NCBI GenBank assembly: GCA_964023275.1
Contig: OZ029926.1
Location: forward strand, 25,643,222-25,707,221
Length of the DNA stretch: 64,000 nt
Reading direction: 5' to 3'
DNA from: Norana najaformis
Taxonomy: Eukaryota > Annelida > Clitellata > Crassiclitellata > Hormogastridae
Of the stretch, positions 4,601 to 59,264 are shown piece after piece (position 1 is the stretch's first letter; each line of letters begins with the position of its first letter). Both the position numbers and the translations under genes were made by a program. Under the pieces are notes generated by a model. That model was not told where the DNA came from and did not search any database. It saw only the letters and a program-made list of their open reading frames with translations.

Positions 4601-7600
4601 TCTATCTGGGAAGTGAAATGAAAGCAGGGGGAGGATCAGAAACAGAAATCAAAAGGAGAATAGCGCTTGCAGGGTCAGCCTTTAACAGGTTACAAAAGGT
4701 CTTCAAACGACATGATATAAAACTGGCGATAAAGCTAAAAATCCTCAACACATGCGTGATCCCAGTACTAATCTATGGATGTGAGTCATGGAGTATTACA
4801 AGAGCAATGGAGAAGAAACTGAATGCAGCAGAAAACAAATGGCTCAGAAGAATACTAAGAGTTAGCTATAAGGACCATGTAACGAATGAAAGTATTAGAC
4901 AACGAACACAGCAACCATTGATAAGTAATGTGATCAAGAAAAGAAGGATGAAGTGGGCAGGACATGTCCTGAGGATGGAGGAGAACCGCAATCCAAAGAA
5001 AATCTTTAAATACAAACCGGACGGAAAGAGAGCAGTGGGAAGACCGAAAAGAAGATGGATAGATTGCCTTGAAGAGGATCTGAAAGGTGCCGGAGTTACT
5101 ATCTATGGGAAAACGGAGGGCAGACGGAGAATGACCCTTGAGGAGATGGCCGGGAAACGAGATTTGTGGAGGGGTGTCATAGAGAAATCAACGACTGGAT
5201 CCAGTCCAGAGATGATTACATGACATGACATTAATAAGCAACTATTTTGTGGTCTCATTGCATTTATCTGTTAGTAAACAACTCTGTTATGATCTCACAT
5301 TACATTTAACCATTATTAAGCAACTATTTTGTGGTCCCTCATTAGATTTAACCGTTAGTAAACAACTCTGTTAATATCCTGCATTATATTTAACTGTTAA
5401 TAAGCAACTCGGTTATGATCCCACATTAGATTTAACTGTTAGCAGACAACTCTGTTATGATCCCACTTGCATTTAACCATTAATAAGCAACTATTTTGTG
5501 GTCTCATTGCATTTATCTGTTAGTAAGCAACTCTGTTATGATCCCACATTAGATTTAACTGTTAGTAAACTATTGTGATGAAATTCAGAATTTTAAATTG
5601 GCATTTCTTCCAGCTCTGACGTGGAGATATGCAGCTGCTGTCCTACTATTACAGTTTCAACATAAAGGGTCCATGTGGGAGACTCTAAAGGCGCTATATA
5701 AATGTTATACTACATTACATCATTGCAGTTACAGATTAGTGAACTTTGTACTTGCTTAAGTATGCATGTATCTGGCGATTTATATAGCGCCTTTTAGCAA
5801 TCTCACAGAGGCATAAGTGGAGCTGTTTTCCTTTTCCAGCTAAGAGTCTTCCAGGGCGCATTTCCATTTCTGCTGACGGGCACAGTCTGACTCTTCGCAA
5901 CGTCTGTCGTGACTGCATAGATCGGGAGTCCTTCTCGGATCTCATGGTCATCCAGTGCAATGCCAGCAACAAACACGGCTATGCATTTGGCGCTGGATAC
6001 TTGAATGTTCTCAGTAAGTATGGCTTATGGCTGTGTCTTTAGCCGCTTGAATATTCTAAGCAAGCATGGTGTATGGCTGTCTTTAGCCACTTGAATGTTC
6101 TCAGTGTGGCTTATGGCTGTCTTTAGCCACTTGAATATTCTCAGTAAGTATGGATTATGGCTGTGTCTTTAGCCACTTGAATGTTCTCAGTAAGTATGGA
6201 TTATGGCTGTGTCTTTAGCCGCTTGAATGTTCTCAGTAAGTATGGCTTATGGCTCTCTTTAGCCGCTTGAATATTCTTGTATGGCTATGTCTTTAGCCAT
6301 ATGAATGTTCTTAGTAAGTACGGCATATGACTGTGTGATTAGCTTCTTGAATTATTATTTCTGCATTTATTGAGCGCCACTATCTGATGACTAAATATCA
6401 ATCAGTGGCGCTGAGCAGTTGTGAATGAAGGACTTGCTCGAAGTCCCTACACAGTAACCATCTCAGGGAATTCGAACCCATACTCTGCGTTACAAGCGCT
6501 GTATCCAGTCAGCTACCATGCCCTATAATTGATTACTGTGCTCAGTAGTATGGTCAAAGTAAGTATGGCTAATGGCTGCATCTTTAGCATCTTAAATGGT
6601 CTCGGTAAACATGGCTTGTGGCTGTCTTTAGCCACTTGAAACTTCTAAGTATGGCCAAGTCTTAAACAGTTTGGATGCTGTTTATCGATATGGCTCCATG
6701 ATTATGGTTGGTAAGTATGGCATTTGTCAATAGGGTTTGTCTTTATTGTCTGTGCCACATACCTTGAGTCTAAAGCAGCCAAAAGATTTCCGTTCACAAA
6801 AGGAGAATGAGACATTTATTGAATCATCAACAACAGATATTTACAGGAAATCTGATATTTACAGGAGAAACTTCATGCAACTGTGTAAATGTCAATGAGA
6901 CAAATCAACCTAAAGGGTCGTTATACATGCTAAATTGAGAGACAGACAGACAGAGACAGAGAGAGAATAACATAACTTAATATGAGATGCTGATTGCAAC
7001 TGTTTACTTTGCAGAGAGAACCAGCGTCAGGTTAGTCGGCGAAACCTCAGTCAGACTCGAAGACAACCAGAAGAGAACTCTTCATTTTCAGTGCATCGGA
7101 ATGTCCGATCCAAGCACAGCCTTCCGCGTCACATGGTACAAAATCATGGACGATGATTCGCGTACCCTTGTCTACCGTGAGCCTCAAGTCATTGTCGTTG
7201 GCAACGGGACGCTGACGATTACGGCAGGCGACAACACAACCAGCAGCTGGGCTAAGCATCGGGGTCGCTATCAGTGCGTTGTAGACAATGGATACAGCAA
7301 AGCTGATGTGATGATGAGGATTGAGGTTGATGAGGTTACACCAACACCAGGTTGGACTTTAAACACTGGCTTTCGAGTCATCCTTAACGTGTTAAGCAAA
7401 GAAGTAAGGTATCCCATATCCCACAAGTGAGACGTAGGGGACGCACTCATCTCCTTTTCTTTAGACCCTTGAGCTGGCAATGGACGAATCCAAATGTCAT
7501 GGACACGGGGGGGGAAGTGCATCACAGGACTTGCCGTTTACTTCCCAGCTTATGTAAAGTATCCCGTATCCCGCAAGTGAGACGTAGGGGAGGCATTCAT

Positions 7601-14908: not shown

Positions 14909-14980
14909 TGGAGATGCCGGGTCTCGAACCCGGGGCCTTTCGCATGCAAAGCGAACGCTCTACCGCTGAGCTACATCCCC
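14909..14980 (-). tRNA. tRNA-Ala (TGC anticodon)
   Basis: A 72-nt cloverleaf on the minus strand starts GGGGATGTAGCTCAGCGG and ends CATCTCC plus discriminator A. The acceptor stem is fully paired and has the G3:U70 pair that marks alanine tRNAs. The D arm (GCTC...GAGC), the anticodon loop CTTTGCATG (TGC) and the T arm (CCGGGTTCGAGACCCGG) are intact. No intron. It should be an active gene. Confidence 0.95.
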
Positions 14981-15336
14981 TGAACGACTGGTGTACGGTC
15001 AACATATTATAAATAGGCCAGTTTGATTTAAATGCGCGTTCTGCCAATGATTATTTTATTCACGTTGAATTGAAATGTCACGCTTCAGTGAATTCTAGAT
15101 TCCAACCCATGATCAAAAGTGACATCAGGTGATCGTTGTACACGGTACAGAATTACCAAAGGAATCTTCTATAGATCAGACCCGTAACATTAATGTCTCA
15201 AAATTAAAATCAGCCATGTCTCAAAAAGTCCTAAACACCCAATTTAGTTTTCCTACTCGAAACGACTTGCGAACTTTTGTTCATAAATAAAGAAAGCTGG
15301 ACCTCCCGCTAAATGACAAGCTCTCAATGGAAAAAG

Positions 15337-15408
15337 TGGAGATGACGGGATTTGAACCCGTGGCCTCTTACATGCGAAGCAAGCGCTCTACCACTGAGCT
15401 ACATCCCC
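15337..15408 (-). tRNA. tRNA-Ala (CGC anticodon)
   Basis: A 72-nt cloverleaf on the minus strand: GGGGATGTAGCTCAGTGG start, anticodon CGC in CTTCGCATG, T arm ACGGGTTCAAATCCCGT, G3:U70 present, discriminator A. All stems pair. It lies 357 bp from the TGC copy in the same orientation. Confidence 0.95.
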
Positions 15409-15684
15409 TGATTGTAACTGTCCGAGCCGTTTTGTCTTATGGAGTAGACTAACCTTATTGTTAAAATCTCCACTGGAATTCCATTTTGTAGTTGTCAAGT
15501 CCAACGTTTTTCTCGTGTTTACATCAAGTCTTCGATTTCATTGTTTATCCAATATAGACCACGTGATCTGTATTAGTTCCTGTTTACTTCGAAATTTTCA
15601 TGCAGAGCTCTGTTTTGGATCTTAGGGGAAAAAATCTAGGAATCGTTGGATAGCAAAACAGCTGTTAGTCCAATCTACCGCGCA

Positions 15685-15756
15685 GGGTATGCAGCTCAGT
15701 GGTAGAGTGCTTGCTTCGCATGTAAGAGGCCACCGGTTCAAATCCCGTCATCTCCA
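15685..15756 (+). pseudogene. Decaying tRNA-Ala (CGC) copy
   Basis: Nearly the same as the copy at 15337-15408 but on the opposite strand. Base 4 is T facing C69, base 8 is C instead of the nearly universal U8, and the T stem (ACCGG/CCCGT) has a C:C mismatch. G3:U70 and the CGC anticodon remain. This pattern fits a pseudogene, although weak activity cannot be excluded. Confidence 0.8.
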
Positions 15757-37900: not shown

Positions 37901-40900
37901 GTCACCTCTGCTATGGTCCTCCAATCGAAGAGGGATTTTACTACGACATGTCGCTTGAAAACAGGTACAACCTCCCACATGCCCTGCTCATGCTTGTTGT
38001 ATACAACAGTTTTGAAACTCACGACAGCTCTACAGTGTTTAGATTGTGTGCATTTTGACCTATTGCGTTTTGAAAACATGCACTAGCTTGATTGTTTTGT
38101 TCTTTTGTTTAAGATATGATTTATAAGAATTTAAAAGTTATTAAAGTTGTGTTTGGTACACCATGGATTTCTGATACTTTGTTATGCAGTCATTGTTATT
38201 GCTATGATTCTTTTTTCCATTCTGACTGAGAGCTGCGTTCAGAGGTGCATGAGATGTGCTTTGCAACTGCTATGTTAAAATGTTATTTGAATCATGAGCT
38301 ACATCAGACACCTGTGATGTTTGTGTGTGTGGTTGAGAGAGAGAGAGAAAGAGAGAGCTGAACTTACTGTTGGATATTGACTTGCTTTTGTGTTTTCCGT
38401 TTTGTGTTCGGATGCTAGACAAGTGTCGCCATACGATTATCCGAACCTTGAGACTGTCGTTAAGAAGATCGTTAAAGAGAAGCAACCATTTGAGCGACTG
38501 GAGATGAAAAAAGAAGATCTTCTCAAAATGTTTCAGGTATTCAGCCACAGTAGCAACAGTTGGACAACGCATTGGGCTTAAAAACTGTACTTTGGCAACT
38601 GGCTTAACAACAGTTGTATAGCAGCATCGGTCTGAACAGTTGTACAACAGCTACATCAGCTGTAGAACAGCATCGGACAACAAATGTGCAACAGCAACTG
38701 GCCTAACAACACCCGTACAACACCTTAGAAATTGCTAAACAGCAGCACCTGGCTTGACAACGTTTGTATTGATCTATATTGAAGACAGCTGTTGCACTGT
38801 TATCATACGGCACAAGGTTTCAATCAATAGAATGTGTATTGATTGAAGATACAACAGTCGAAGCAAGATGCAACCAGCCATGCCTCATATGTTAACATTT
38901 ATGTGTGTACATAAAAAATTTTGATAGTATTAATAAATTTCTTCAGAACAATTTTTTTAATCCTGAGGGCCATCCTACATTGGATAAAAAATATAAAAAA
39001 AGGAAAAAAATAATTATAGATCAACCATTTTCTACTGTTAAACTAATTTTTGTATTCGAGAGAAATTGTTCCTACCTTGGGTTAAAAAAGTGATGTGATT
39101 CCAACATTTTTGGAGATAATCAAGTAAAATTTTCAGAAATTCCTTATGTCTGGTAGAAGAAAATGTGTGCCTGATTTTATTAAAATCCAAGATAGTGTAA
39201 TGTACACTTCTGGTTGCTTCGACATGGAATGACCCTGATTACAGAATGTGTTACTGTGTAATAAGTCTCTGATGTAATAGTAAAAGGTGGTAACGAGTGA
39301 ATGGGTGTGTTTTGTTTTTGCAGTACAATGAGTTCAAGCTGCGAATCATTAACGAGAAGATTGACACTCCGACCACGACTGTCTATCGGTGTGGCCCTCT
39401 GATTGACCTGTGTCGTGGCCCCCACGTTCGCCACACTGGCAAGGTCAAGGCCCTTCAGATTACCAAGGTCGGTCCCTTCTTTTCTCTTACCACGAATTAC
39501 CTGCTTGGATTGACTTTTGACTTTGTAAAGCACCCTAGAAGTAGCCAGCTACTTACGATGCTATATAAATTGTCGTCATTACATTATTTTACACTACGTG
39601 CTGTGAGCCTGAATGGTGTTTTAAAGCGGTCATCTCAACTTGTAATACTCTGCAGTTGGGTGAAGCCTTCCACTGAAGGCTTAGGGACTTGCGAGCAGAG
39701 AAAGTGTTCCCATTTGTATTCGGGCTATTAGAGTTTTACTTGATGACAACGGGATGTTTACTTGTTTATGACTGGATTTTTACTTGTTTACGAACTTGAA
39801 AAGGGTTTTTTGAAGAAATATGGGAAGACTTTAGCTAGTAACTTGTCGTGCAAAAGTGCAAAAATGCAAGTGAAATTTGTAGTGTCTTCCTAACAAAGAT
39901 GTGGATTTTATTCAGTTGCCGTGATGAGAATAGACCTTTACCTGAAACATTTTATGTTCTTATCTTGTTGTCTTTTTATATTGTTTTCCTTGTTGTCTTT
40001 TTATATTGTTTTCCTTGTTGTCTTTTTATATTGTTTTCCTTGTTGTCTTGTTATCTTTTTGTATTGACCAGTGAACATGCAAAATGAATGTATGCATTTA
40101 TGAATACCATAGGTTTATTGAATACAGTGAATGTGCAAATGAATGTATGCATTCAGTGAATGCAATAATGATGTGGATGAGTTAGGGTAGTAAGTTGTCC
40201 TTTGGAGCCAACAATGCTGTGACATTAGAACTAAACAAAGTTATAAATTCATTCAGCAGAGCCATTCAAATGTTTTTTGATTCAAGCTAAGAATCTGTGT
40301 TGATCCTCAAATTCGAAGTATTAATAGACATTTGGTTTTCCCGTTTAATTAAAGAATTCATCAACATACTGGGAAGGCAAAGCCGACAAGGAGAGCCTTC
40401 AACGCATCTACGGAATCTCATTTCCCGATTCGAAGCAACTCAAGGAGTGGCAAAGGATCCAAGAGGAGGCAGCCAAGCGCGATCACCGCAAACTAGGGCG
40501 TGTGAGTATTGATCGATGGATCAGAGTTAACCATTGAACGATCACGCCATAGGTTTGTGGTCTAGTTGGTAACGCAGTGCATCTGTAATCCAACGATTGT
40601 GGGTTTGAGCATGGTGAGCAGACTCTTTGTAACAACCCCTGGACAGGTTGTTTGCACACACTCATGTCATGCCTCAGTTGTGGATCTTTTGACAGTGAGT
40701 GCTTGATAATTGAAATAAATTAAAATAAATATAATTTTTCTTCCGGATAATTTTTGACTTCCTGAGGGATCACAGATACCTCGGGGCAAAATAAATAAAT
40801 AAATAAATAATTAGTAAACTGCAGTTGTTATTGTTGTTGCAAGTAGTTCCTAATTTCACTAAAATCAGATGTCATTTGTATAATGTTGCGTCTTAAAATA

Positions 40901-43900
40901 ACCCATCGTAGAATGCCCTAGACATGATGTTAATTAGTCGCTTTAGGTCAACAGTCTTGCCAAGTAGAAAGCAACCATCAACCTATATGGAGGGGCACTG
41001 TGCCCGACTGGTTAGAGCGCTTGGCTTGTAACACGAAGAGTACGGGTTCGAGCCTCCTTCCATGAGACGTTTGGTTACTGTGTAGGGACCTTGAATCCTT
41101 CACTCACATTTGCTCAGCGCCATCAATTGATGATTTGTCATTAGGTAGTGGTGCCTAATAAATGCAGAAATAATAATAATAACAGTATGTGAATGAAATG
41201 CTGTGATAATACTTAATATTTTCCTCTTTGTTTGAAAGTTTATGTGACCTTTACCTGAAAGATTTTATGTTCTTATCTTGTTATCTTTTTATATTGTTTT
41301 CCTTGTCGACTTTTTATGATGTGTTGACTTTTTTGACATCTAGGACCAGGAGCTGTTCTTCTTCCATGAGCTGAGTCCGGGCAGCTGTTTTTTTCTGCCG
41401 AAAGGTGCTCACATCTACAACACCCTTTGTAACTTGATGAGGGTAAGTCAGCCAGTGGATATACCTACAGGGCACAATACAAGACAGTGGCTGATTGGTC
41501 AAGTTTTTGCAAGGTAACTCGAAGGTTACGGATTCTAGCCTTCCCTCCAAGATGGTGTCTGGGTAAAGACTTTGAGAAGTCTTTGATGTCCAGTTGCTTT
41601 GATGTCTTGTTACTAGATGGGGCCACTTACATATTTAAGGAAACAATGAAGTGGTTAGAAATCAAATGATGTTCCTTAGCTTGAGACTGGGTGCCTAGTT
41701 AGCATCTTTTAAAAGGCACTGACGTATGAAGCACAGCTGTATTACACACCTAAAGAGAAGCCGCTTAAGGGTAAGCTGTATTTGTGTCTTGAGCTGGACA
41801 GATTTTCCAGAACTTTTCAGCAGATTGTTCTTGAATGACAGTTCACTGTGGAAGGAAGTGCAATCTAATTTGATCTCAAGGCTTCTATAGCGCCGTTATC
41901 ATAATGCCTTGAGCATCAGGCAGTGGTTGCTTCAAGTCAAAATCGCAAATCAGAATACACGATACATTGGAGAAGCTGGGTTGAATTTTGATAGTTTAGA
42001 GAAATCAGAAGCCATGCTACAGTGGAGCAATATGCTCAAGTCGTCTTATGTGAGCAGACTGTGGAAATAATCAGCTTCAGTGCATGGTTAGATTAAGATT
42101 TGGCGAGTACTGTTTGACTGTCTTGAGTCTGTTTTAAGCTTATAAATGTATGTGTCTGTGTGTACAGTCTGAGTATCTGAAGAGAGGATTCACGGAGGTT
42201 GTCTCGCCAAATCTCTACAACATCAAACTTTGGGAGATATCAGGTCATTGGCAGCACTACGCGGTACGGCGGTTTATTTCACGGAATTCTTGGCTCTGAT
42301 TTCTGTTCTTGCAATTCTCCTTTCTTTGATTTTTTCTGTTCTTGGATTTTTCCTTTCTATGTTTTTTCTGTTCTTGGATTTTTCCTTTCTTTGTTTTTTC
42401 TGTTCTTGGATTGTCCATTCTTTAATTTTTTCTGTTCTTGGATTGTCCATTCTTTAATTTTTTCTGTTCTTGGATTTTTCCTCCTTTATTTTTTCTGTTC
42501 TTGGATATTTTCTTTCTTTTATTTTTTCTTTTCTTGGATTTTACCATTCTTTTATTTTTTCCTGTTCTTGGATTTTACAATTCTTTTATGTTTTCTGTTC
42601 TTGGATTTTTCCTTTCTTTTATTTTTTTTCTTTGATTTTTTCCGTTTTTGATTTTTTTATATGTTTTTCCATTCTTAGTCATCAGATTTTATCAGTACCT
42701 CTTAGCCAAGCACTTAGGTGAATAACCTTTGGTCCCGCCTTTTATGGGGTAAATTGAAGCAATCTGCAGATGGCATTTTTCGATTCCTGCATGAAACTTG
42801 CCATCGAATTAAGCTACATTTTAACTGCAACGTAAATATTATTATTAATTGGTGTTTTTTTGTTCAGGAGCACATGTTCTCGTTTGAAGCGGAAGGCGAG
42901 AAGTTCGCATTGAAGCCGATGAACTGCCCAGGCCACTGGTAGGGGAATCATTGACTCATTCACTTATTCATTCATTCATTCTATCAGTCATTCGTTCATT
43001 CTATCATTCACTCATTTTCATTTGTTATTATTGTCATTTTTGTTCATGAGGGATCATATCTACGCCAGAGTTGCAGTTTTAAAAGTTTTTTCGGTTTTGT
43101 TTCCAGTCTGATGTTCGATCATCGCCCGCGGTCGTGGAAGGAACTGCCGATACGTTTAGCCGATTTTGGAGTTCTGCACCGGAATGAGCTCTCTGGCGCC
43201 CTCTCTGGCCTGACCCGTGTACGACGATTCCAGCAGGATGATGCCCACATCTTCTGTCGCCCCGACCAGGTCAGGAATATTTTCTAGTCGCTTTATAGTC
43301 TCAGGGGGTCCGAGAGGTCGAAACTATTTTCTTGATGTTTACTTTTTTGTTTTGGAAAATATAGTTAGTTTTCATTTTAAAAATATGTGATTTATTTTGG
43401 CATGCAATCGATTTTTTATTGTTATTTTGCTATGAATTAATACATTAATTTCTCAGTTTTAATTTCTAATTTGGTAAATATTGATAGATATGACCCATGT
43501 AAACAAAAGCTCTTTGGGGTCCTTGATAATTTTTAAGAGTGTGTGAAGGGGTCCTGAGACCAAAAAGTTTGAGAACCGCTGGTCTAGCGATTCTGTCTGT
43601 CCATAACTGACAGGGAACCACCTTTTAATGATGCAGCTTGGTTGACTGTAAACAAGTCTGTATCCTTTACCTTTATGCTTTTGAGGAGTTTATATAGAGG
43701 CATGTAAGCAGGTGTGTTACATTTCGTAATCGTAATCGAGAATTTATAAAGCACCACTTCATGTTAGACTCATCAGAGGCGCTTGTGGCCGAACAGCCCA
43801 GAATTCTGTTACAACGAGGTTGGATACCCAGAGCCGCTGGGGGACAGAATGGTCTTCACGCGCTTGCGGAAGAGGGAAGGAGGAAGGCAGAGAAGCTACA

Positions 43901-53442: not shown

Positions 53443-56400
53443 TTAAAACAAGAAACGTATCGTAAAAAGAACAGTTAAGGTCGCGAATTCCATCTTGATT
53501 GACGACAATTTTTCAGCAGAGTTTGGTTTGGTTTTTACGTCGCTTCTGACACCCGTGTCCTTAGAACTTGTACCCTTGATGGTGTCTTTCTGTCTGGCCT
53601 CGACGGCTCTGACGGTCACCCTTTGCTCGCGATACACGTCATCGTCATCGTCATCGTAATCGTCAACTTCGAAGTTGAAATCTTCGTCGGATCTCGGCAG
53701 TTCCGTAGCGAAAACCCAGTCGAGGTCCTTTGCGAAATCTCGGCTGAATTTCGTTGTTTTTGAATGAGTAGGAGTAGCGGCGGTGTAGCTCGCTTTCTGG
53801 CCTAGGTGACGGGAGCCCTGACTGTTCTCCAGTCCGTCATTGAGCGAGCTGTCCGACCACCGGACGTTCTGGACGGACGATGTGGGGCTCGTCCGGAGAA
53901 CGGGACTTTGTACTTCGAAGTCCAGGTGTGGAAATTTCAAAGTGAGAGGAACTTGGGTCCGGTGTTGTGTAAATGACGACGACGATGTTGGGGTTGACGT
54001 CTGCTTTGGACGACGCGTCCTTGATCTGCGCGTAGACTTCCGGTGTAGCTCTGGGTCAGCCTGAACTCTGACCTCGAAGCTCGGAGCCACTGATGTCGGA
54101 GGAAGAGCAGAATCTGTGTGCGTGGTCCGGTCGCGTTTTCTGTGCAATTCCATTTCCGCCGAGTATTCAGTGTTCATTCGACCGTGACCAAAGTCTGCTG
54201 ACCCATCCGGTCTTTCTGAGACAGTCTCGGACACGCTTGGGTTGCGATCGGAGTCTTCGTGATAGGCGTCGAGTGAGAACGTACGGGTGGACTGTTCCGT
54301 GTTAAGCGAACCGGAACGTGTGCTATCGTGCGTGTCCCGAGGCGCGTCGATCTTGCTCTTGAAGAACTTGATGGGCGAAGTGAAGAAAATGCGTTCCATG
54401 TCGAGATCGATGTCGTCACGGTCCGTTTCATCGCGTCGCAGAGTGCATTCATCTGTGTCCCACCATTTCCTGAACAGTTTCCCGAAGAAATCGCCTTCAC
54501 TGAGCCGTGTCAGAGCGGCATCTAAGCGTCCGACGAGGGAACCATTGCGCCTGGTCGCGAGGACGTAGCTAGTCTCATGGGTGAACTGATCGAGGGCTAG
54601 TAGATCGCAGGGTTCTCTGGACGAATGGTAGGACGCCTCCAGGGACTCCATAATCAGGGCGAAGTCTCCTCGTCGGACCTTTCTCAACCCCTCTTCCAAC
54701 GAAATGACTATCTCCGACGGAGTCTTGTCGTTCCAGATCTGCTGGTAGAGAGACAAGTTCGAGGTCTTCAGCTGATAAGCCACTGCCTCGCTGGAGACGC
54801 CGAACCCAAGTCGGGAATGTTCGGTGTCGTTGAGGAGGTTCTCGAGCAGCCAGGGGCGATGGTCTGAAGGCGTGTCTGGAGCTCGAACGAGCACTGAGAT
54901 GGTGGATTTGAGGAGCGGTTGCGTGTAGCTGAAGCGACGTGCATGGTGCAGGCTGACGGAATTTATCGGAAGAACACTGACGTTTGCTACCTGCAGTAAG
55001 CAATAAATAACAATTAATAAATAATAATAGCTAAAAAATCACATTCTTCGAATACTGGACACGCGGTAAATGTTAAAAAATCACAGATTTTTACAATCCC
55101 TCTTGAATACAGACTCGTCTGTTAAAAATATATCTGAATATATGTAGTTCCGATGTTTAACGACATCTTATGACATCAAAGGCCGTTGACGTCGCCCTCC
55201 TCCTTTATCCAGGCTTGGGACTGGCACTACCCCAAACAAGGGAGTGGCGGAGTTCCGAATATATTAAGACTATATGAATAACATATACAGCTGAGCGTGT
55301 TTATCTATTTTAAACTTCCTATCGGAAAAAAATCAGAATTACTGCAGCAACATATTTAGACAACTGAATCATTACGCCTGATTTTTCTTGGAGTTGAATT
55401 TTTATATATAGGGACAGTAGAACACGTTTTAAAGGTGTCTAAAGAGAGTATCGGACTGTACGAGCTTATTTCTTATTTACAATAATAGCAGAGTATTTAA
55501 GTTAGTAGTAATTGTTTCCAGTTTTTATTGACATCTTCTGATTGCCGAGGCCGATGACATTAATCCCAGCTTGCCCATATATCCGGACAGAATAACTGCA
55601 AAACCGAACGTTTATTAATCAATGTTTAACTTCATCTTGTGGCCGCCACAGGCCGTCAATATCGACCTTCCTTTATTATTAAACAATGCAATTGCAACTG
55701 TAAGTAAGTAAGTAAGTAAGTATATTCTTTATTAACCAATAGCTAATCGCACATCGGTTTACAAGTATTTAAGAACACAAGAAAACTTAATATTCATACA
55801 ACATCCTAACAATAAAACACTTACGCGTTAAATTGTCAGCAGGAGGAATAATACGATCATGGGTGTGGGGCCGTAGGGAATAACTGAGGGTTTTAATTGG
55901 TTGGAGTAGCTGATGTAAGAAATGATTTGGGTTGGTCAAGATTGCTTTAAAAGACGAGCATCAGCTGTGCCACAGAGTTCATCGAACGTTGGGGAGTTCC
56001 CAGGAAGATATCGGAGACGCACAAGTCTCCGCATCAAAGCCTGGAGCCGAGCTCTAGCCTGTGCCCCAGCATAGCCCCACCACACGGGAGAGGCGTACAG
56101 CATCCTGGCCAGTGTTGTGGCTCGGACAACGTCGTAGAGCCGAGGGCCAGTTAGGCCATGTGATACAAGAATTCGTATGGCATATAAAGACTGACGTGCC
56201 TGACTATGAATCCGATCAATATGAGAATCAAAATTTAACATCTTCGATAGGGTAACACCCAATATTGTCATCTCTGGTACCCTGGTTAAACCGGGAATCA
56301 CATTAGGTAAAATTATCTGCTGATTTCTCATTCTTGGCCGGTGAATTATCATTTCACATGTCTTTTTATGATTAAGTTTTAAGTTACACTTATCCGCCCA

Positions 56401-58153
56401 AAGGGCAACATGGTCCAGTTCAGCCTGAACCATCAAGCTATTGCAGGATGGTACAAGAAGGTAACTGTCATCAGCGTATTTAAATAACCCATTGTTGGGT
56501 GCTAAAGGCTTATACTTGGATATGGCAACTAGGAAGTTCACTGGTCCCAGACCCGAACCCTGAACAATACTGGAATTTATGCCAACTAAGGTAGAGACAC
56601 TACCATTGAATTTGGTGCAGCAACAAGGTAATGATTTTAATTCTACTCATTTTATTTATTTATAGCGTCAGTGGAAGCGTTTTAAAAGGTGTCTAAATTG
56701 ACCACTGAATAATTCAGTTTACGCAACGATTTAAAAAGTATAATAGTAGTTTCCAACGTTTAGCGACACCTATGGCATCAAAAAATTGTACAGTTTCTCT
56801 AATCTTTTTTAAACTCGCGAGTAATTAAACGATCGGTTAGTTTCCATTATTTCACAACATTTTATGGCTGTTCTAGGGCCCGTTGACGTCGACCTTACCT
56901 TACCTTATAGGCAGGTATAGTATATGGCTGAATGAGTTTGTGATCTAAGGTTTCCGCAGTTTAACAACATCTTATGGCATAAAAGGCCGTCGACATTGCC
57001 CTCCTCCTTTATCCAGGCTTGGGACTGGCACTACCAGATATAAGACAGTGGTGGAGTTAAATCCAATCAAGTAGTAGTAGTAGTTCCAATGTTTAACGAC
57101 ATCTTATGGCATCAAAGGCCGTTGACGTCACCCTCCTTTATCTAGGCCTGGGACTGGCACTACCACAAATAAGGCAGGGGCGGAGTTAAACTAACCCTAT
57201 CAGTTATTAATATGTCGTCGGTAGTAAGCGTTTAAAAGGTGTCTAACAACACTTGACTTATTCAGCGTTTGATTATAACATAATTTAGTTTGCGGTAGTA
57301 GCATCCAGTGTTTAGCGACATCTTGCGGCCATGGACTGCGCTTACCATGTCATACCAGTTAAACTGATGCAATCCGCGTTACGGATTGATTTATGATTGC
57401 AATTAATATGAGATGCTTATGGCAAAATTATGCACCAAAGTACTGGATCAAAACAAAATTATGCAGAATGGAAAAGAAAATATACTTCGTTCGAGAGTTT
57501 TTCCGTAAGTTCCGCCCAGCCGTTTCCGTTCTTCCTCTTCCTACCATTTCCATCCTCCTTTTCCACCACCAACCATTCGATCTGGAACGGTACGATTCGT
57601 GACATCTCTTTTACTACATCGACCAGATACCCAGAGACGCTGTCACCGCTTGGCATCAATTGCCGAGTGAAAAATGGATCCACCTGGCGAACAGTACAAA
57701 AAGCTCAATAGTGTGGCGTCATCTAGCGAATATCTAAAAAATGAGTTAAATACCAATTGAAGTGCAATTTTCTGAATACAATAACATTTACAATAGATGT
57801 CGTTGAAATGCTATTTGTTTTGGTAGTGTTCGTTTATTAGTCTGTTTTTCATTCCTCTCTCCCTTCTTTCATTTCATCCAGCATTCGTGTCTTATTTTAT
57901 TTTTCCTTACTTCCTTCCGCCTATCCTTCCTTTGTCCATTTCTTCTTTCCTTCACTACTTTCTTCTCATTTTCCTAATCGTAATCGTAATCGCAAAAATT
58001 GAGATTTCTACAGCACCAAACGAAAGCTAAGTCGCGGAAAAAAGCTCATGCACAAGCGCTCAGTCAAAAGAAAATCGATAGGCAGGTAAGGTCAGATTCA
58101 GTTCCAGGTCAAAGACAGATGAGACGGCTGCGGTGGATGGTGTTTAGAATTGG

Positions 58154-58196
<43 letters not shown>

Positions 58197-58713
58197 ACAG
58201 ACAGACAAGGACAGAGACAGAGACAGAGGAAATAGGAGGAATCGGCATAGGATTTCTAGAATAGGATTGTTTTCAGTTTTGAGTAAAAGGCCAGGGCAGA
58301 GATAACAAGAGATGAAGTGTTGGTGAGTTCGTATGAGGGATCAGATAGACATTTGTCGTAAATCCAGCTGAAACTGATACCAGACGGTAGAAGCAACTTG
58401 AGCAATGGGGCGATTACCAAATTTTGTGGGTGGACAGGCAATGTAGCGTTAGGACAAAAGAGGATTGATAGGAGTGGTTGAATTGTAAATTGTAGGCTCT
58501 TCAAAAACCGAATTATAATAATAGTTTATTATAGGCCAGTATAGTCGACTAAAGCTGCGTTCACAATGCGATTAATTGCTACAACGACTCGTCCAGCGTA
58601 GAGGAGCCTTAAGGATGTACTTCGGCCGCGCAGGAATCTTACCTCGACCGCAGCGATCCTCAACGGTTGTACGATTTCTCCGCCAGTTTTATAGTGCGTC
58701 CTATCGTTGACCT
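53443..58713 (-). CDS. Pore-less ionotropic glutamate receptor-like ligand-binding protein, 3' part
   Basis: Exons in transcript order: 58713/58711-58643, 57683-57486, 54990-53443 (stop TAA); GT/AG borders, phase 0 joins, 604 visible residues. Exon A ends EIVQPLRIAAVE; exon B reads VDPFFTRQLMPSGDSVSGYL, VDVVKEMSRIVPFQIE and GWAELTEKLSNE; exon C continues VANVSVLPINSVSLHHARRF, SYTQPLLKSTISVLVR. Together these are the S1 half of an iGluR ligand-binding domain. S2 follows at once: ENLLNDTEHSRLGFGVSSEA, LSLYQQIW, RRGDFALIMES (E204), the disulfide pair C217/C271, and FRKWWDTDEC. M1, pore and M3 should lie between S1 and S2 but only about 12 residues do; M4 is missing too. Then comes a charged, Ser/Thr-rich stretch (272-578, DDYDDDDDDVY) and a hydrophobic C-terminus (FATLTVLFTIRFLF). 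5' exons are not in view. A secreted or GPI-tethered binding protein is inferred. Confidence 0.85.
55140..55260. repeat. Family D repeat (representative copy)
   Basis: About 110 bp: 'ttccgatgtttaacgacatc', 'tcaaaggccgttgacgtcgc', 'cctcctcctttatccaggct', 'tgggactggcactacc'. Other copies: 33125-33240, 33640-33830, 34055-34150, 56955-57065, 57080-57190, 60165-60270, 60300-60410, 60425-60500, 63395-63470 and 63835-63910. The last 10 kb is especially rich in them. No tRNA head, open frame or terminal repeat is visible. Confidence 0.75.
55695..56645 (-). mobile_element. Non-LTR retrotransposon, RT C-terminal half, TTAC tail
   Basis: Minus-strand frame from about 56645 reads SSIVQGSGLGPVNFLVAISK, then LFKYADDSYLLVPS (the YADD catalytic motif), NLKLNHKKTCEMIIHRPRMR, VTLSKMLNFDSHIDRI, RMLYASPVWWGYAGAQAR and LVRLRYLPGNSPTFDELC. 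It is open to about 55936. The 3' end carries 'aataaagaatatacttact' and a (TTAC)n tail at 55699-55722. 5'-truncated; a different family from 4439-5230. Confidence 0.85.
57684..58642 (-). other. Intron of the receptor-like gene with family C tail and GA microsatellite
   Basis: Family C copy at 57975-58510 including a (GA)n run at 58155-58192. On the minus strand the copy ends in a degraded RT C-terminus (ALAFYSKLKTILF). No exon recognised between the two receptor exons. Confidence 0.6.
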
Positions 58714-58869
58714 CTGACAGAAAGAAACAGGCACAGGGATAAGCAGACGTACACAGAACGACAAGCAGAAGGAGCTCATGAAACGCGTGGATAAACTAAC
58801 TTAAACGAGGCTGGATTGCAAAGAAAATCAACCAGGCAGAGGGGAATAAGAAGGAAATCAGACAAAAAT

Positions 58870-59094
<225 letters not shown>

Positions 59095-59129
59095 TCATCC
59101 TCCTAGATCATAAACTACGCACACACATA

Positions 59130-59264
<135 letters not shown>

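Follow-up and report, generated by a model that had tools for sequence, protein, structure and literature searches.

What could be the role of a glutamate-receptor clamshell that is unable to open a pore? This question is raised by a gene on the minus strand of a 64-kb stretch of the genome of the annelid Norana najaformis (G000:C14:25643222-25707221; this whole stretch is the window below, and coordinates given without a contig are positions within it). An earlier note on this DNA had proposed that a single open exon of 1548 nt carries a natural fusion of the S1 and S2 halves of the ligand-binding domain (LBD) of an ionotropic glutamate receptor (iGluR), and this was confirmed, with its coordinates and frame being right. 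The exon spans the end of S1 and continues into S2, and the landmarks of both halves are 13 residues apart (about 12 in the earlier note) compared with 11 in an engineered GluA2 construct. Two upstream exons complete S1 as claimed, and the three exons, bordered by GT-AG introns with matching phases, join into a protein of 604 residues. We consider it quite probable that this gene encodes a secretory and surface-tethered clamshell without a channel, with a predicted glycosylphosphatidylinositol (GPI) anchor, that it is one of 12 iGluR-derived family genes found in this genome, and that its product would act by buffering or removing a ligand or by presenting it. The architecture and the descent are well supported by the sequence, the exon structure, the gene family and the homologues described below.

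The joined product matched Lig_chan-Glu_bd (PF10613) with 37.5 bits (cut-off, 30) and gave no match to Lig_chan (PF00060) in the Pfam check that the earlier note had proposed, whereas SBP_bac_3 (14.4 bits) stayed under its cut-off of 26.4. Lig_chan-Glu_bd exceeded its cut-off in the joined product only, as the long exon scanned singly had no match and the 198-nt exon remained below the curated cut-off (Table 1). When residues 1-273 were compared with the PDB sequences, 197 distinct matches were obtained at E≤0.001 (best, 4.8e-18), and the top ones (the best 60 of the 197) were ligand-binding constructs of GluK3 and GluA2 aligned over about residues 31-271, that is, spanning the junction. The matches extend through S2, and the predicted model of a database homologue, P0001, has the clamshell fold. 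No 19-residue window of the 604-residue protein has a mean Kyte-Doolittle hydropathy above 1.3, a weak peak at the extreme C-terminus, and therefore the membrane segments M1-M3, with the pore loop, and M4 are absent, as had been claimed. Instead of M4 and a cytoplasmic tail, S2 is followed by a hydrophilic stalk and then by a hydrophobic stretch ending at the stop codon. Because the junction lies within one exon, no separate exon can insert M1-M3 at this point. Moreover, only about 60 residues precede S1, both in the four-exon model presented below and in P0001, which leaves no room for an amino-terminal domain.

Relatives with the same junction, as the earlier note had suggested looking for, were found in the databases. 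A first protein search retrieved P0001 (619 amino acids), P0002 (639 amino acids) and P0003 (524 amino acids), with 75, 55 and 68% identity, respectively, from the source 'lgn', possibly assemblies of public reads, on contigs of 2662, 2439 and 1900 bases, and a profile search of proteins, in which scoring was limited to the candidates sharing most words, returned the same three. The layout of the fused junction is identical in all of them; P0001 and P0002 are continuous through the exon borders, like spliced transcripts, and the start of P0003 looks like intron. A wider search with the same limit on scoring yielded at least 20 proteins, of which P0020, P0021 and P0023 are bacterial-looking, and an animal source is named for P0012 only. 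This protein from the annelid Paralvinella palmiformis resembles by eye clade I of the tree described below, from which it was left outside, and has a CNGI..SKMYS end and a hydrophobic tail. P0013-P0019, from contigs of JGI, ENA and 'lgn', are family relatives with insertions that are disordered in part.

The same layout recurs in the genome of N. najaformis itself (assembly G000, 608 Mb in 17 contigs). A 187-residue query matched 21 places, and 12 loci besides the window were read. Ten of them (L011-L019 and L022) contain one open exon from the end of S1 to S2 with no channel, and the remaining two (L020 and L021, NMDA-like) have membrane segments. The preceding S1 exon was present upstream in all ten, with phase 0 borders that, by eye, are GT-AG in nine and GC-AG in L022. 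A further channel-less gene, L056, which was found via PF10613 and has one apparent additional intron in S2, brings the family to 12 genes, including the window gene. A genome search with L014, whose counts are lower bounds, recovered the same 12, and no further junction-crossing gene was recognized by reading among its 37 matches. The junction measures 11-14 residues in 10 of the 12 genes, 30 in L013 and 46 in L017, and the S2 cysteine pair is kept in all 12. Lig_chan matched 46 places of the genome (about 29 loci when grouped by eye), none of them at the 12 channel-less genes. Around L012, the minus strand carries five ANF_receptor matches within 200 kb (G000:C10:5314943-5515364, open frames of 262-309 residues), perhaps an unrelated tandem family.

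An ordinary iGluR that is decaying or misassembled, its channel having been lost through a single deletion in the lineage or in the present assembly, would account for the missing M4 and for the poorly conserved stalk and tail. This explanation is very improbable, since eleven more loci and homologues from other sources share the layout, more than a local deletion in the assembly would account for, and decay is contradicted by the open frame conserved in the three homologues and by the reading of P0001 and P0002 through the exon borders.

Two features had not been mentioned in the earlier note, i.e. that the start codon is missing from the three exons of the window and that the C-terminus is hydrophobic. 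The start codon is supplied by a further upstream exon. A genome search with the N-terminus of P0001 gave a single place, C14:25720016-25720111, on the same chromosome and strand and about 13 kb past the end of the window. The sequence of this candidate is MKFARRFRGSTISVVVLSLVIVTSSVLGRQNSATTVGVDGSDVTQS; its GTGAG donor fits the acceptor at 58713 in phase, and the exon was accepted despite an E value of 0.11 because strand, phase, donor and sequence agree. A scan for a signal-peptide exon from position 58714 of the window to position 73680 gave nothing convincing. The resulting four-exon model has 651 residues, spans about 23.5 kb and begins, by inspection, with the predicted signal peptide MKFARRFRGSTISVVVLSLVIVTSSVLG. 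Long GACA and TA repeats (58880-59262) are located immediately upstream of the exon at 58643-58713, and the intron preceding the long exon holds a reverse-transcriptase fragment (55936-56646, minus strand; RVT_1, 26.2 bits, below the cut-off).

Regarding the C-terminus, hydropathy was judged by eye. When the 12 genes were scanned over the exon-encoded sequence starting at the S1 end, the 15-mer of highest hydropathy always lay close to the C-terminus, with 0-12 residues between it and the stop codon and a mean hydropathy between 1.41 (L016) and 3.25 (L019), and a C-terminal hydrophobic peak was also observed in P0001-P0010 and P0012, i.e. 11 of the 12 database proteins shown. A single transmembrane helix or free secretion in place of a GPI anchor would agree with the short polar or charged ends found beyond this stretch in genes such as L012 and L018, but the closeness of the hydrophobic stretch to the stop codon throughout the family leaves almost no cytoplasmic tail, and we regard both possibilities as unlikely. 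The tethered form with a predicted GPI anchor fits the sequences better than free secretion. Thus, of the surface or secreted protein made from a receptor gene that the earlier note envisaged, a secretory channel-less S1-S2 protein is supported, and a predicted tether is preferred to free secretion.

Several points weigh against a family of tethered clamshells lacking a channel. The hydrophobic peak of one database relative, P0011, is not C-terminal, the hydrophobic tail is weak in L016 and in the window gene (1.53), and the GPI anchor is a prediction from hydropathy judged by eye. Only P0001, P0002 and the window gene showed signal peptides, just three of the ten paralogues (L011, L012 and L019) yielded their first S1 exon, and the exon borders of the paralogues were picked by eye. 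In addition, the Lig_chan search also missed L020 and L021 despite their membrane segments, so that its silence at the 12 genes is weak by itself and their reading rests on the continuous exons.

Table 1. Parts of the window gene and of its predicted product
Feature	Position	Strand	Remarks
First exon, start codon and predicted signal peptide	G000:C14:25720015-25720153 (outside the window)	same strand	P0001 N-terminus search, strand, phase, donor
Second exon, start of the S1 half (..QPLRIAAVE)	58643..58713 (71 nt)	-	AG acceptor, GTAAG donor, in phase; matches P0001 and PF10613
Intron inside S1	57684..58642	-	phase 0
Third exon, middle of S1 (DPFFTRQL..GYLVDVVKEM..WAELTEKLSNE)	57486..57683 (198 nt)	-	GT-AG, phase 0; PF10613 24.3 bits alone
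Intron at the ancestral iGluR position	54991..57485	-	phase 0
Fourth exon: S1 end, junction, S2, stalk, hydrophobic C-terminus, stop	53443..54990 (1548 nt)	-	open frame, AG acceptor, stop at 53443
End of S1 (VANVSVLPINSVSLHHARRFSYTQPLLKSTISVLVR)	54883..54990	-	aligned to GluK3 and GluA2
Natural S1-S2 junction in place of M1-pore-M3	54844..54882	-	13 residues
S2 half of the LBD	54445..54843	-	holds both cysteines of the protein (residues 217 and 271), which has no others
Invariant motif MERIFFTSPIKFFK after S2	54358..54399	-	same in window gene, P0001 and P0002; in P0003 too across 14 residues
Stalk, hydrophilic, poorly conserved	53518..54357	-	residues 303-560: 24% Ser+Thr, 31% charged; P0001 model disordered
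Hydrophobic C-terminus, candidate GPI-anchor signal	53446..53517	-	best 15-mer EFATLTVLFTIRFLF, mean Kyte-Doolittle 1.53, ends at stop

The descent of the family was addressed by comparison with the ordinary receptors of the same genome, in which PF10613 matched 73 places. In the six ordinary iGluRs compared (L023-L026, L042 and L048), the splice acceptor that precedes the final S1 segment coincides in position and phase with that of the family, which supports descent from an iGluR gene. In two of these receptors, L025 and L026, a single exon contains the end of S1, M1-M3 and most of S2, a region that is split in most other receptors here, and a deletion in such a layout would give the exon of the family. 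PF01094 had at least 106 genome matches among the 115 candidates scored out of 192; it is present upstream of receptors at C1:59.32, C16:14.85 and C7:23.51 Mb, and none of the scored matches was seen, by eye, on the same strand within 30 kb upstream of the 12 loci. The ancestor would have been an animal iGluR that lost the amino-terminal domain, M1-pore-M3 and M4.

A horizontally acquired bacterial substrate-binding protein was weighed as the source of the family, since SBP_bac_3 matched all eight paralogues scanned, with 56.9 bits against the cut-off of 26.4 in the one shown fully. However, PF10613 scored higher (99.6 bits) in that paralogue, the window protein is under the SBP_bac_3 cut-off, the introns sit at the iGluR position and the S2 cysteine pair is of the iGluR type, all of which makes a bacterial origin extremely improbable.

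A tree was built from 14 family rows (the 12 genes, P0001 and P0002), 8 ordinary iGluRs, whose rows are partial and were picked because their exons fell in the retrieved loci, 2 NMDA-like genes and 2 reference rows. Four clades received bootstrap values of 97-100, i.e. clade I (L012, L014, L015, L019 and L022), clade II (L011, L013, L016 and L017), clade III (L018 and L056) and clade IV (the window gene, P0001 and P0002), and the deeper nodes were weak. The 12 genes are not united in the best tree and internal support is low, as would be expected if the channel had been lost several times independently and they were not one family. Several alternative groupings were likewise not rejected, namely clades I, II and IV together, clade III with either receptor group, clade IV with the AMPA/kainate-type receptors (0.09) and clade I with the NMDA-like ones (0.08). 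Nevertheless, a single origin lies only 0.03 log units off the best tree and is not rejected by the approximately unbiased test (p-AU 0.61), and the junctions are of nearly the same length in most of the genes, so that we see several losses as possible but somewhat unlikely and keep one family as the preferred reading. The grouping of clade II with the AMPA/kainate-type receptors was rejected (0.011).

The binding pocket was examined at positions 485 and 705, which we take to be in GluA2 numbering and which depend on the alignment. Arg485 is kept in 8 of the 12 genes (L012-L015, L018, L019, L022 and L056) and is replaced by His in the window gene, by Lys in L011 and by Thr in both L016 and L017. 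Clades II, III and IV have an acidic residue at position 705, where clade I has a proline. L-Glutamate is an unlikely ligand of the window protein because the arginine that holds the alpha-carboxylate is lost, and from these residues an amino-acid ligand seems plausible for clade III but not for the window gene. Since the pockets differ among the four clades, their ligands probably differ as well. The clamshell would close on a small extracellular molecule and, as no conduction is possible in the absence of a pore, the protein would buffer or remove its ligand or offer it to a partner in the membrane. A ligand-binding role at the surface is favoured, be it as a sink, a decoy or a co-receptor.

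The region of the MERIFFTSPIKFFK motif, with 17-19 of 19 residues conserved versus 56-74% for the LBD, hints at a protein partner. A second conserved tail motif (DWVF..T..PR region, about 53689-53772, minus strand) somewhat resembles it, and both motifs are shared by the window gene and its homologues within an otherwise variable tail. The LBDs of iGluRs form dimers, and the product could accordingly, instead of binding on its own, join channel-bearing iGluRs as an accessory or decoy subunit, an idea that would also suit the conserved motif after S2 and the about 29 channel-bearing loci (grouped by eye) in the same genome. As the channel that normally holds the subunits together is replaced here by an anchor, we find this pairing rather doubtful and retain the surface-tethered binder. 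Tentatively, annelids may have turned the clamshell into a separate, channel-free binding system of about a dozen tethered proteins with diversified pockets, which would take up different small molecules and either pass them on to membrane partners or signal through these.

Other features of the window include a threonyl-tRNA synthetase-like gene on the plus strand, of which exons at 39294-39731 and 42955-43287 matched tRNA_SAD and tRNA-synt_2b, a possible immunoglobulin-domain exon (6981-7430, plus strand; Ig_3, E 1e-4, below the cut-off) and three tRNA-Ala genes, two on the minus and one on the plus strand, within 850 bases (14909-15756). Elsewhere in the genome, the best matches of the globin exons were giant haemoglobins, i.e. 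Glossoscolex chain D (90 bits) and the extracellular globin-4 of 4v93/1x9f (108 bits), from Lumbricus, and these matches point to a clitellate annelid.

The earlier note knew of no described family with this layout, and our search of open-access papers, with preprints outside its scope, uncovered no account of an iGluR LBD family that is channel-less or GPI-anchored, which does not establish its absence from print. In the portions of the sources available to us, one survey considered an iGluR sequence only if at least four SYTANLAAF residues were conserved (PMC6307864) and a second characterizes iGluRs and insect-type ionotropic receptors (IRs) by PF10613 plus PF00060 (PMC2924276), criteria that would exclude such genes, and therefore 12 loci beside about 29 channel-matching ones could go uncounted.

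Compared with the animal AMPA, kainate and NMDA receptors, the family shares the S1-S2 clamshell, PF10613, the S2 disulfide cysteines and the intron before the last S1 segment, but it has no channel, no M4 and no room for an amino-terminal domain, and ends in a hydrophobic C-terminus instead. The IRs, as far as the consulted part of PMC2924276 describes them, also have an iGluR-derived LBD in which glutamate-contacting residues can be missing, but they combine PF10613 with the PF00060 that the window protein lacks. The engineered GluA2 and GluK3 S1-S2 constructs are joined at almost the same point, with 11 residues between the landmarks in the GluA2 construct as against 13 here, although they are man-made and have neither stalk nor anchor. 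The bacterial SBP_bac_3 proteins are likewise free clamshell binding domains with a weak Pfam match here, and differ in that the family has introns at the iGluR position, a higher PF10613 score and the iGluR cysteines. The acetylcholine-binding protein of gastropods and one annelid is, in the part of PMC3423370 available to us, also a receptor ligand-binding domain without a channel. The likeness is conceptual only, because that protein has a Cys-loop fold and forms soluble pentamers, whereas the present one has the iGluR fold and is probably tethered. By this analogy, the surface-tethered iGluR-derived clamshells are best read as its counterpart; if so, they would be a second case in animals, independent of the acetylcholine-binding protein, of a neurotransmitter-receptor binding domain freed from its channel and, if they bind ligands, they would offer natural stand-alone LBDs with diverse pockets, as the acetylcholine-binding protein served the nicotinic receptors.

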